A stretch of 43,891 bases of DNA, taken from Candidatus Saccharibacteria bacterium GW2011_GWC2_48_9 (GTDB lineage: Bacteria > Patescibacteriota > Saccharimonadia > Saccharimonadales > Saccharimonadaceae). Below the pieces are notes generated by a model. It was not told the DNA's origin, ran no database searches, and saw only the letters and a list, made by a program, of their open reading frames with translations. The position numbers and the translations under genes are program-made. Below, in pieces: positions 9,099-15,781 of the stretch. The stretch lies in the NCBI GenBank assembly GCA_001003725.1, contig LCPR01000014.1:1-43891 (forward strand), in the 5' to 3' direction. Position 1 is the first letter of the stretch, and the number at the start of each line of letters is the position of its first letter.

Positions 9099-9239
9099 GT
9101 TTCTATTTCAGTCACAATCTATTGCTAAAATATCTAGATTATATTTATTGGTTATATTGGCTAAAAAGTAAACTTTGATGTATTATACATATTACGACAG
9201 CACCGCGCTGTCTTTTGTTCTTTGAAAGGAAGTGGTGGT

Positions 9240-9803
9240 GTGAGTAGCACCGACCCAGAGGTAATCGCCGCAGTAGACGAGATTGTCGAGAAGCGCTTCG
9301 CACTAGAAGTCGAGCGAGACGCCGTGAACCGTCGATTTCAGGCAGCGATCGCCGAGATCACGAAGTTCCACGAGGAAGCGCTCAGAGAGCTCACGCTACT
9401 CGAGCGTCAGCTCGATCCGGCCATCTGGCGAGCAATCGACAGCAATCGCGCCACGCTTATCGAGCGAGGCAAGCGGTCGTTCATCACAATGGCGGCCAAG
9501 TTCCAACTGCGCGACGTGCCTGCAAAAATCGAGGTGCTCGACAAGTTGGGCATCATGGAAGCCGCCCGCAATTTGGGCGTGGTTCGACAAATCGCCAATC
9601 CGCCCAAGGGAGAATGGCGTTTCAATCAGAAGAAGTTTCTCGCGTGGCTCGGTAAAAACAACGAGCTACATGGACACTTCGAACAGTTCATCGATCACGC
9701 AGATGGGGGCGAATCCTTGACCATCCAGCCCAACGCCAACTACACCGTACTGCACGACAGCAAGCGCGTGTCACCGCCCTCCATCTCCATCAAAAAGAGC
9801 TAG
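9240..9803 (+). CDS. Host-nuclease inhibitor Gam-like protein (candidate; module B)
   Basis: SD GGAAGTGGTG before GTG 9240. N-terminal coiled coil (AAVDEIVEKRFALEVERDAVNRRFQAAIAEITKFHEEALRELTLLERQ), then IERGKRSFITMAAKFQLRD...KIEVLDKLGIMEAARNL...GEWRFNQKKFLAWLGKNNEL...ESLTIQP, resembling the Mu Gam-like fold layout. Confidence 0.6.
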   Translation: MSSTDPEVIAAVDEIVEKRFALEVERDAVNRRFQAAIAEITKFHEEALRELTLLERQLDPAIWRAIDSNRATLIERGKRSFITMAAKFQLRDVPAKIEVLDKLGIMEAARNLGVVRQIANPPKGEWRFNQKKFLAWLGKNNELHGHFEQFIDHADGGESLTIQPNANYTVLHDSKRVSPPSISIKKS

Positions 9804-11410: not shown

Positions 11411-12064
11411 TTATCTTTTCCGCCTTTTGCGCCGACGCGTAGTTTTCATTGCAGGCATAAGACTACGCACAAAAGTACTCAAGCCTTTTTCGACCATATC
11501 CAATGTAAACAGCAGGCTTCGTCTACCCAATTCGAGTCGCTGGCGATATGTATGATTCCATGCGCCCGCGCCCTTGCGCGTCAGTGGTCGGTAGAGCTTG
11601 TCGATCGGAATTTTACCAGGATTTGGCACAGAATCAGACAGCACCTCACCTGTTTTGATATCTATACTTTGCCATGATTTGAAATCGTGCGTATAGAGTA
11701 GCAATACATTGGTGTGGTAAAATTTCGCTGTTTTACGCATCGCGAGTTTCTGCTTTTCGCCTAGATGCGCCATTGTCGGTTTGCTCTCTACAATGGCACG
11801 AATTGTCATACCATCCGGGGTTTGGATCGAGATTTCTACGTCCGGCGTGTATCGATAAAGACCGACTTGTATTCCCTCCTCAGGTCGTCGCCATTTCCCA
11901 TGAAAGCCATTCGCCTCGAGCCAGCGGATAAGTTTCTCTTCTTGGTTTGAGTCAACCCAAAAGATTGAGTCTCCTATGTTTACTTGATGTTGATTGCCTC
12001 GCGAGTTGTACATGTTATTTATGATATCAGGCCAAAAGAGATTCGCAGTACGGAGTTTTGGCAT
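11411..12064 (-). CDS. Putative PD-(D/E)xK endonuclease, TnsA-N-like
   Basis: 217 aa; SNQEEKLIRWLEANGF, RYTPDVEISIQTPDGMTIRAIVESKP (PD...ESK catalytic-type pattern), Arg/Lys-rich C-terminus. Confidence 0.55.
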   Translation of the reverse strand: MPKLRTANLFWPDIINNMYNSRGNQHQVNIGDSIFWVDSNQEEKLIRWLEANGFHGKWRRPEEGIQVGLYRYTPDVEISIQTPDGMTIRAIVESKPTMAHLGEKQKLAMRKTAKFYHTNVLLLYTHDFKSWQSIDIKTGEVLSDSVPNPGKIPIDKLYRPLTRKGAGAWNHTYRQRLELGRRSLLFTLDMVEKGLSTFVRSLMPAMKTTRRRKRRKR

Positions 12065-12160: not shown

Positions 12161-12943
12161 TTAGCTGTCCAACTTGATTAGTTTGACGTATTTGGAATCT
12201 AAGTTATTAAGTTGAATTGCATTCGTTAAAATTGTAAAGAGATCAATAAAGTCGTTGCGTGCTTGAATATAGTCTCGCTTAATAACACTTACCCTCTTGC
12301 CGACCCTCTCTCCGGCTTCTAACAGTTGAACCTTTTTGACATTATTCACGAAGTTGTCGTCTATAACAGAATCGTTGTGTGCAATAAGGTGTCGCACTTG
12401 CCAGTGTCTATGGATTCTGTTAAGCAAATCATCATTATCTATGTTAATACCAAAATACGCATCAAAGATGCCCTCCATTTGTTTAACATTCTGAAAGTTA
12501 ATTTTTCTTTCTGGGTCTTTTGTTGATTGTAGTTTGCTATACATATGACGACCAAATTGTGCTGCAACATGTTTGGGTGAGTCAAGCCCAGATTCCTCAC
12601 ATTTTACGAGAATTTCCTGCACCTCTCCAGCTGAAAAGTTAATGTTTGAGCTTTTAATGACTTTTGCAAAATCCTCTATCAGTAAACTTTTAAATACGTC
12701 CTTAAGTAAGCTCTCTGCGGCTCCGACCATAATTACGAAACCTTGCTTGTAAAGCATGTCCGATATCTCTTTCTGCTTGGTATCTGCACTCTTTTTCATA
12801 CTTTTATATGCAGCATCGGCATTGGTACCCTGCTTCAGTAATCCACCGTAAATACCATAAAGTGTACCGTACGAATCAAAAATGGAATCAACCTCCTTTA
12901 TTCGCTCGACAAAGAAATCTTCAATAGTTCGTAGTTTCTTCAT
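12161..12943 (-). CDS. HEPN domain-containing protein, putative RNase (RiboL-PSP-HEPN/MAE_28990-like)
   Basis: 260 aa; RHWQVRHLIAHNDSVIDDNFV contains the R-X4-H HEPN catalytic motif with a following N. AT-rich gene overlapping the upstream MmeI-like gene by ATGA. Confidence 0.65.
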   Translation of the reverse strand: MKKLRTIEDFFVERIKEVDSIFDSYGTLYGIYGGLLKQGTNADAAYKSMKKSADTKQKEISDMLYKQGFVIMVGAAESLLKDVFKSLLIEDFAKVIKSSNINFSAGEVQEILVKCEESGLDSPKHVAAQFGRHMYSKLQSTKDPERKINFQNVKQMEGIFDAYFGINIDNDDLLNRIHRHWQVRHLIAHNDSVIDDNFVNNVKKVQLLEAGERVGKRVSVIKRDYIQARNDFIDLFTILTNAIQLNNLDSKYVKLIKLDS

Positions 12944-15681
12944 AATGTAACTTCCTGATACTTTTCAAAAAGCATCGTGACACGGTCGGCTTCGGAGGCG
13001 AAGGGTTCGCGGCGATAGAGGCGGTCGACGGCTTTGTCCAGAGCAGTGTGAGCTTTTGCTAATACTGGGGGCATAGCGAGGGGGTCGTAGAGGTCAGCTA
13101 ATGAACTACCTGGGAATTGGGCGCGGGCGTCGAGGATGGTTTGGGCGAGCCGGGAGATTTCGGTCTTTTGCGCTTCGGTGGCTTCTGGCCAGATGAAGTT
13201 GTTGTAGACGATTCCCGCAGAATACTGATAGTCACTTTTCATACGACCGGAGACGGTGCGCATCCAAGCCATGTGCATCGTCGATTGGAGCACACCAAAG
13301 TGATAAAGTGACGCGCTTGGCACAACCAGCGATGAGCCGTTTGCGATAATATCTGTCGACATAAAACCGATGGGCATGTAGTTGCGGTTCTCAGAAGACA
13401 CCTTCGGCAGTAAGAGATAGTCGGACCGGGGCTGGCGAATTTCTCCAAAAAGCGTTGGCGTCTTGGCCATATCCAGAGTTTGCGGACGTTCACTAGTGAG
13501 GCGGTATGCACGTGTTTGTTCGACTCTCTTCATGACAAAGCTATTGCTTCTGATGTCGGATGGATTTACGCCTTCGAGCCACAAGCAATAGCGCACGGTA
13601 TTATTAATAAATTCATTACCGCCGACGTATCGACGTACCAAATGTTCAGTTTGCGGCTCATCTGCGACAAGCTGCCGATAGTCTTCTTGGCTCAGGATAA
13701 GATTACCTTTGTCGATTGGCATACTACCATAGTTCATACGAGGGACCCCGTAGCAGATCTGATTTGAGCGATTCTCAATAAAAATTGATGGCGCATCAAT
13801 TCCATAGCCGTTGATATTCTTTGCGAGCACTTCATTTGGTTCTCCGCGTATATCTTCGTACTCAAAAATTCGTCGCTCCGGTTTACCAGATAGCCCGAAG
13901 CCGACTATCACACAATACACTGCGGCATTGCCCTTTGCGTCATTACTCCATTTGAATGTTTGATGCAAAAAATTAATATGAAAGTCTTTGCCAAACAAGT
14001 ACTTCCATAGCACAGGAACTTGCTCGCCCTGGATAATGGAGTTTGTCGATACGAGCGCAGATTGTATTGCTGAATTTTGCTTCATAATTCCTGCAGCCTT
14101 GACGTACCATGCTGACACAAAGTCCAGAATTCCGGCCGATTTCACTCCATTGAAAGCCTGAAATACGAGGTCTTTTTGCTCTTTAGATTGCTCTTTCTTG
14201 CCCAGGAATGGTGGATTACCCAGAATGTAACTCAGCTCACTTGGCGCAACAACACTTGCCCAGTCTGTCGTGAGCGCATTTGCATGTACAATCGTGGCAC
14301 TAACAGTCAATGGCAACCGCTTAAACATCTTGCCGCTCTGGTGGCTGTATTCCATATTCATCTGATGATCTGTGAGCCAGATGGCTGTTTGTGCGACAAG
14401 GCTCGGGAACTCGTCGATTTCTATACCGTACATTTGATCCACATTCACCTTGAGCGTACCCACACCTTCGCCGGCGTTTGCAAACATGTCTTGCTGTTCA
14501 GAGTTTTTGGCGAGCTGCGCAACAACCTTGTGTTCGAGTCGACGTAGCTCGCGATACGTGATGACCAGGAAGTTACCCGATCCACAAGCTGGGTCAAGAA
14601 ACTTGAGGCTTGCTAACTTATCCTGAAACTTACGCAATTCATCATACTTCTTGCGTGGGCCTGCAGCGAGTGCGTGAGCAAATTCTACATAGAGATCGTC
14701 TAGAAATAATGGCTTGATGACACGCAATATATTTTTCTCGCTCGTATAGTGTGCGCCTAAGTTGCGGCGGGCTTTAGCGTCCATGACGCCCTGAAACATA
14801 CTACCGAAGATAGCCGGAGACACCTTTGACCAGTCGAGACGCATCGCCTCGAGTAGCTGGGTACGCATACTACTGGTAAAGTATGGCGTCTGGATAGATT
14901 CGGCGAATAGGCCGCCGTTGACATAGGGCAAGCTAGCCATCTCTTCGTCGAGTGAACCTTGTCGCCTGTCTACTGGTGTGTTGAGTGCCTGGAATACCTG
15001 CATCAGACGTGGGCCAAGATCAGAGCCATCGTCGCTCGTGCGATTTGCCAAGTAGTGCTGTAGCAGTTGGTGATCAAAGATACCACTATCGTCTGCAAAC
15101 ATACAAAAAACGAGACGAACGAGCAGAACTTCGAGATCATGGCCAGTGTAGTTATCTGCTTTGAGTTGATTGTGCAGGCTCGCCATAGCTTCGGCAGCTT
15201 TGATGTTGACTGGGTTTTCTTCGGCTAGGTTTTTGGATTGTTGCTCTATCATGAAGCCAAAGAGCTTGACATGCTGCGGTAGTTTATCGATCGTGAACTC
15301 TACTTGCTCACGTGTATCGAGATCGATACAGAGGAAACTTGCAAAATCACTCAGTACGATAGCATGAGGCAAGTCATGGTCTGGCATGGTTTCTAGATAT
15401 TCGTAGGCTTGAATACTCGCTTTCGTGAGGTCTTTACCACCAGATTTCTGCTCCGCGAGAAGTTTGCCGGGCCAGAACATATCGATAAAACCTTGTCTGC
15501 CACTCCCTTTTTTGATTGCATATTCAAAGAAAGCACCGTGCCTGCGACGATCGACTCCGTATACCGACAGGAAATCACTCCAAAAGCTCTGACTCTCGCC
15601 TTTTTCATACGTCTCGCCCTGCCACTTACTCGCAAACTCGGTTGCGCGGTCTTGAATCTCGTTCCAGCTTAAATTCGCCAT
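12940..15681 (-). CDS. MmeI-like (type IIL/IIG) restriction-methylation enzyme / class I SAM-dependent DNA methyltransferase
   Basis: 913 aa; N-terminal FIDMFWPGKLLAEQKS (D-X9-ExK nuclease pattern), helical linker, methylase motif I FLDPACGSGNFL, motif IV ILGNPPFLGKKEQ, C-terminal target-recognition region. Confidence 0.88.
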   Translation of the reverse strand: MANLSWNEIQDRATEFASKWQGETYEKGESQSFWSDFLSVYGVDRRRHGAFFEYAIKKGSGRQGFIDMFWPGKLLAEQKSGGKDLTKASIQAYEYLETMPDHDLPHAIVLSDFASFLCIDLDTREQVEFTIDKLPQHVKLFGFMIEQQSKNLAEENPVNIKAAEAMASLHNQLKADNYTGHDLEVLLVRLVFCMFADDSGIFDHQLLQHYLANRTSDDGSDLGPRLMQVFQALNTPVDRRQGSLDEEMASLPYVNGGLFAESIQTPYFTSSMRTQLLEAMRLDWSKVSPAIFGSMFQGVMDAKARRNLGAHYTSEKNILRVIKPLFLDDLYVEFAHALAAGPRKKYDELRKFQDKLASLKFLDPACGSGNFLVITYRELRRLEHKVVAQLAKNSEQQDMFANAGEGVGTLKVNVDQMYGIEIDEFPSLVAQTAIWLTDHQMNMEYSHQSGKMFKRLPLTVSATIVHANALTTDWASVVAPSELSYILGNPPFLGKKEQSKEQKDLVFQAFNGVKSAGILDFVSAWYVKAAGIMKQNSAIQSALVSTNSIIQGEQVPVLWKYLFGKDFHINFLHQTFKWSNDAKGNAAVYCVIVGFGLSGKPERRIFEYEDIRGEPNEVLAKNINGYGIDAPSIFIENRSNQICYGVPRMNYGSMPIDKGNLILSQEDYRQLVADEPQTEHLVRRYVGGNEFINNTVRYCLWLEGVNPSDIRSNSFVMKRVEQTRAYRLTSERPQTLDMAKTPTLFGEIRQPRSDYLLLPKVSSENRNYMPIGFMSTDIIANGSSLVVPSASLYHFGVLQSTMHMAWMRTVSGRMKSDYQYSAGIVYNNFIWPEATEAQKTEISRLAQTILDARAQFPGSSLADLYDPLAMPPVLAKAHTALDKAVDRLYRREPFASEADRVTMLFEKYQEVTL

Positions 15682-15781
15682 AGTATCTGTAGTATAGCTT
15701 TTGAGGGGTTATTTTGCCAGTGAACAGAATTTCATCAACAAATAACAAAACACCCATTGGGTGCTGTGAGTCTAGGGCAGT

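Follow-up and report, generated by a model that had tools for sequence, protein, structure and literature searches.

Our analysis suggests that the locus studied here is a two-gene defence operon, in which an MmeI-type restriction enzyme is backed by a HEPN protein acting as a PrrC-like second layer, the HEPN gene itself being a mobile add-on. We give this explanation, taken as a whole, a probability of roughly one half. The window, i.e. the complete stretch of 43,891 nucleotides that was analysed, corresponds to contig 14 in the genome (1.07 Mb, labelled G000 below) of an ultra-small bacterium, a Candidatus Saccharibacteria. The two open reading frames are co-directional and overlap by 4 nt. 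At their junction (GTATCAGGAAGTTACATTATGAAG) the TGA of the MmeI gene lies inside the ATG of the HEPN gene, exactly as the earlier note had described it, and the coordinates and lengths given there for both genes are correct (Table 1). A Shine-Dalgarno-like AGGAAG is present 7 nt upstream of the HEPN start.

Table 1. Features of the MmeI-HEPN locus, with positions in the window
Feature	Position	Strand	Basis or remark
MmeI-type (Type IIL) single-chain restriction-modification (R-M) enzyme, 913 aa	12940..15681	(-)	Pfam, PDB 5hr4, PADLOC
HEPN-clade protein, 260 aa, predicted metal-independent RNase (E77-x3-K81, R184-H185-x3-H189, NFQ149-151, D195, G215)	12161..12943	(-)	Alignment, AlphaFold, PF18735 match of a relative
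ATGA overlap, MmeI stop within HEPN start codon, translational coupling	12940..12943	(-)	Sequence
Possible promoter CTGGCA-18-TATACT, just 5' of the MmeI start (15681)	15691..15720	(-)	Weak: such sites occur in the region at shuffle expectation
217-aa gene, TPD...VESK, possible PD-(D/E)XK nuclease, 96 nt downstream of HEPN	11411..12064	(-)	Co-directional

The first gene encodes an MmeI-type enzyme. All five Pfam domains are found in order (MmeI_N, hel, Mtase, TRD and C; E-values from 5e-24 to 6e-89), phmmer aligned residues 4-912 with the solved MmeI (5hr4; E = 2.5e-278, 929 bits) and the PADLOC model REase_MTase_IIG was matched with 1162 bits. The nuclease residues of MmeI are D70, E80 and K82 (PMC4833311); D66...E77-Q-K79 of the window enzyme align with D70...E80-M-K82, so that the PD-(D/E)XK set is present, together with the methylase motifs DPACGSGNF (363) and NPPF (489). 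The specificity positions of the TRD, taken from PMC4833311 and transferred via the alignment with 5hr4, are also present. R723/E738 would specify C at base 1, Y642/M645 A at base 2 and K806/D808 G at base 6, K751 with G773 probably specifies G at base 3, and base 4 (S774/Q810) was read as N. The recognition site predicted from these residues is roughly 5'-CAGNAG-3' (C-A-G?-N-A-G), whereas that of MmeI is TCCRAC; the coupled 3' gene is a further difference from MmeI. Type IIL enzymes such as MmeI cleave about 20 nt from their site and methylate one strand.

The protein encoded by the second gene very likely belongs to the HEPN superfamily, as judged from alignments of its relatives. HEPN RNase sites combine Rx4-6H, with a polar residue after the R, and an upstream Ex3[KR], according to the HEPN survey of Anantharaman et al. 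(2013; PMC3710099). The RHLIAH motif pointed out in the earlier note is indeed present at R184-H189. Alone it is weak, because R-x4-H occurs in 23% and R[HND]x3H in 3.7% of shuffled proteins of the same composition; the weight rests on its invariance in divergent relatives. R184 and H189 are conserved in all 11 aligned relatives, with identity down to ~20%, a polar residue (H/N) occupies position 185 in every one of them, and the Ex3[KR] motif is retained in most (E77 in 10/11, K/R81 in 9/11). Further invariant residues include N149-F150-Q151, D195 and G215. The relative encoded by genome G241 could be aligned with positions 17-190 of the 191 positions of PF18735 (HEPN_RiboL-PSP; genome E = 7e-4), with a score of 18.7 bits that lies under the curated cut-off of 28.4 bits, whereas the window protein itself, when scanned directly against Pfam, matched no HEPN family. 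It is the conservation of the motif, the Ex3K and this sub-threshold but near-full-length match that uphold the HEPN assignment.

Other comparisons were less informative. Pfam, NCBIfam and PADLOC hold no model specific to this clade, hhalign against two other, single HEPN-like proteins gave no match, and a PDB profile search returned chance matches only. The AlphaFold model, obtained from an alignment of six sequences, is all-helical (pLDDT 84.5). Foldseek detected no significant match for it in the PDB (best E = 0.4), Csm6, a HEPN protein, ranking fifth with a non-significant E of 0.66; one phage protein was matched at E = 2.7e-4, helical folds being poorly discriminated by Foldseek here. A search of 99 genomes for PF18737 (MAE_28990) retrieved nothing and is uninformative, since control genomes also remained empty.

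Relatives of the HEPN protein were identified in 4 of 101 near relatives (whole-genome search) and in 12 of the 393 genomes of the class, the window's own genome being counted each time. Remote relatives occur elsewhere in the phylum, and profile comparison revealed distant ones in plasmids of Sinorhizobium and Parageobacillus; the weak plasmid matches of the G169 protein are distant HEPN relatives by the same approach. A direct search for HEPN relatives in the viral_contigs, phages and plasmids sets retrieved none. Two alphaproteobacterial plasmid proteins (L091:5341-6330 and L093:5290-6288) carry the same C-terminal RHLLAH..GIVD signature; one of the two has zinc-ribbon matches, and the L091 protein comes after a P-loop NTPase gene.

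The genomic contexts of the clade bear out the proposed link between the HEPN protein and restriction, although in a broader form than a partnership with MmeI. Three members reside in type I R-M loci: in G037 a UG13b reverse transcriptase lies directly upstream of the HEPN gene, in G266 this gene overlaps HsdS by 4 nt and in G153 it is located between HsdS and HsdR. In the type III locus of G136, a HEPN gene interrupted by stops is found between Mod and Res and overlaps Res by 4 nt, and in G169 the HEPN gene adjoins a type II methylase. Three further copies have no R-M genes in view (G001, G241 and G305); in G001, a species of the same genus, an intact gene (L005:8448-9200) sits between rpsH and rplF in the ribosomal protein operon. 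The type I island of G037 (L006:3567-15536) encodes two more HEPN-like proteins, one AbiU2-like (12163-12852) and the other RiboL-PSP-HEPN-like (12881-14107).

The pairing with MmeI is not unique to the window's genome; the earlier note had named such uniqueness as grounds for refutation, and its proposal was not refuted on this point. In G116, which belongs to another genus, MmeI and HEPN genes follow each other in the same order with a 7-nt gap. At the beginning of contig C12 of this genome, the 215 C-terminal residues of an MmeI, comprising its TRD and C domains, are encoded ahead of HEPN, and contig C6 ends in the front part of an MmeI; the two most likely represent one gene split between contigs, as the TRD profile positions that they cover are complementary (3-65 in C6, 68-206 in C12). 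Nevertheless, the dedicated MmeI-HEPN unit envisaged in that note is not supported, and the pair is not a fixed one. Only 2 of the 14 MmeI-bearing genomes of the class (G000 and G116) carry the pair, and the clade is also associated with other R-M types or stands alone. If ~1000 genes per genome and independence are assumed, the probability of finding HEPN directly behind 2 of 14 MmeI genes by chance can be roughly estimated at 8e-8. By contrast, co-occurrence of the two genes at the genome level (2 of 393, P = 0.06) is not significant; only their adjacency is.

Between G000 and G116, MmeI is ~71% identical and HEPN 33%, and the G116 HEPN is nearer to those of G001, G169 and G241 than to that of G000. 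In the HEPN tree, G116 groups with G001 with moderate support; the position of G000 is not settled by this tree. Recurrent acquisition of HEPN behind MmeI is likely, albeit not proven, the alternative being a fast divergence of HEPN. Among the closest MmeI orthologues (65-71% identical), those of G047 and G126 have nothing coupled to them, and no HEPN of this clade was found near 16 further MmeI loci (15 on plasmids, one in a phage). A protein resembling the Mu Gam-like one of the window (see below) is encoded near the G047 MmeI locus (L042:12789-13394).

The HEPN gene is more AT-rich than the MmeI gene (G+C of 0.375 and 0.485, respectively, with 0.482 for the window), an observation that had previously been taken to suggest a secondary addition. 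The observation is correct, but it does not carry this conclusion: all ten measured members of the clade lie 5-13 points of G+C below their own flanks. AT-richness is therefore a property of the whole clade that does not date the arrival of HEPN at this locus, and we rejected it as a sign of recent addition. Better evidence for an add-on is that the gene is missing behind most MmeI orthologues.

How could such an operon work? As expected from its family, the MmeI-type enzyme would methylate host sites and cleave unmethylated entering DNA. The HEPN protein, a predicted endoRNase co-translated with it, would stay silent as long as restriction works, MmeI either restraining it or setting its dose. 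Once restriction is blocked or overwhelmed, HEPN would cut cellular or phage RNA and the infected cell would stop. Of this picture, the layout of the operon, the identity of MmeI, the conservation of the catalytic motif and the recurrence next to R-M genes are shown, whereas we infer that HEPN is active as an RNase, what it cuts, how it is silenced and what triggers it. As a mobile add-on, the HEPN gene would have joined restriction operons of several types. Since relatives recur inside R-M systems of several types, HEPN probably acts as a fail-safe, shutting down a cell in which DNA restriction has failed.

This scenario is reminiscent of PrrC, a HEPN anticodon nuclease that is silenced by the type Ic R-M system EcoprrI and released by phage Stp (PMC2610378). 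In both cases a HEPN RNase, here a predicted one, is encoded in an R-M operon, and DNA restriction would be complemented by an RNA-cutting second layer. However, the partner of PrrC is a three-subunit type I enzyme and that of the window protein a single-chain IIL enzyme. Moreover, PrrC possesses an N-terminal ABC-ATPase regulator, for which the all-helical window protein has no match; the mode of action of the latter may therefore resemble that of PrrC, although it is not itself a PrrC. Anantharaman et al. (2013; PMC3710099) linked at least 16 HEPN clades to R-M systems and proposed such RNases as a second, suicidal layer of a multi-pronged defence. The R-M-linked clades described there (AbiJ solos, AbiU2, RiboL-PSP-HEPN, MAE_28990) share with ours the Rx4-6H and Ex3[KR] motifs and the location in R-M operons. 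In contrast, our clade does not match any of the Pfam HEPN models significantly, and neither an MmeI-type partner nor Saccharibacteria hosts are named in the passages of the survey considered here.

The principle of an R-M-linked HEPN RNase as second layer is thus already published (PMC3710099). New here are a HEPN clade without a name, its IIL partner, its Saccharibacteria hosts and the distribution of one clade across type I, II, IIL and III systems, to which a swappable effector slot behind MmeI genes may possibly be added. None of the papers listed by a search of the open literature had both HEPN and MmeI, which is not proof of absence. If our reading is correct, the PrrC principle, restriction backed by an RNA-cutting shutdown, would extend to the simplest, single-protein restriction enzymes, and would do so in organisms whose genomes measure only about 1 Mb, so that each gene is costly. 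A two-gene unit of under 4 kb would also make an easy test bed for a restriction enzyme restraining a toxic partner, and a swappable slot would offer a route to new effectors.

The main competing explanation, which we consider possible but clearly less probable, is that HEPN is a real RNase toxin but a mobile passenger in its own right: it would be encoded by an addiction or abortive-infection gene that settles in defence islands, uses the R-M operon for its expression and has no physical or regulatory contact with MmeI. The R-M-free copies of G001 (between rpsH and rplF), G241 and G305 keep this explanation alive, as silencing cannot always need an R-M system. It would also account for the mutually unrelated types of the R-M partners, for the AT-richness of the gene relative to every host flank and for the much lower conservation of HEPN than of MmeI between both paired genomes. 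On the other hand, co-expression seems to matter, to judge from the repeated tight overlaps and from the location of the gene within hsd and mod-res operons, and an Rfam search beside HEPN detected no antitoxin RNA.

That the HEPN-like protein is instead a non-catalytic or regulatory partner, binding RNA or serving as an accessory subunit that tunes MmeI expression or cleavage, seems improbable to us. Some HEPN domains are non-catalytic (PMC3710099), and RNase activity is a prediction in the present case; but the catalytic R and H never vary in a protein that otherwise diverges to about 20% identity, and a single subunit is unlikely to serve four unrelated R-M architectures. It is far less probable still that the two genes are chance neighbours, i.e. 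that an ordinary restriction gene happens to be followed by one for a helical hypothetical protein whose RxxxxH is fortuitous. The frequency of the motif in shuffled proteins (4-23%) and the fold search of the PDB, which yielded no significant match, would be compatible with this, but the motif is invariant in 11 relatives, and members of the clade follow MmeI in another genus as well and also lie within R-M loci of types I, II and III. This recurrence argues against mere coincidence.

The gene following HEPN in the window encodes a 217-aa protein with no Pfam or PADLOC match. We rejected it as a fixed third component: its homologues, present in 3 of 150 relatives (G031, G049 and G116), are scattered and do not consistently adjoin MmeI or HEPN, the one in G049 being ~1.6 kb from the MmeI gene. 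It is thus probably not an obligate part of the unit. Elsewhere in the window, positions 9222-9803 encode a Mu Gam-like DNA end-protection protein (phrog_491, E = 3e-5).

Genes other than HEPN were observed behind MmeI enzymes. In G049, whose MmeI is also among the closest orthologues, the gene for a 276-aa membrane protein follows MmeI with a TTGA overlap of 4 nt (L040:5386-6216), and overlaps of the same length with MmeI were observed for a TIR protein gene in Deinococcus radiophilus (L120:5314-5763) and for a PLD-like nuclease gene in Methylobacterium currus (L118, after 5311). The MmeI of G267 is a more distant one; behind it come genes for a 173-aa protein and for an Abi_C protein (PF14355, 9e-17). 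Possibly, a swappable effector slot exists at the 3' end of MmeI genes. A bolder and rather doubtful extension of this idea is that single-chain MmeI-type enzymes have a modular 3' slot, translationally coupled through the 4-nt overlap, whose occupants (HEPN, TIR, PLD-like and membrane proteins) are suicide or nuclease effectors that are unrelated to one another and can replace each other. MmeI would then sense the failure of restriction and gate the effector, and the HEPN clade would be a portable RNase module for type I, II, IIL and III systems. Finally, several Saccharibacteria contain a three-gene set (L038, L039, L110 and L112) composed of an MmeI-like methylase (~930 aa), a helicase-like protein of ~650 aa and a ~385-aa protein, which is reminiscent of a restriction or DISARM-like system in its own right.
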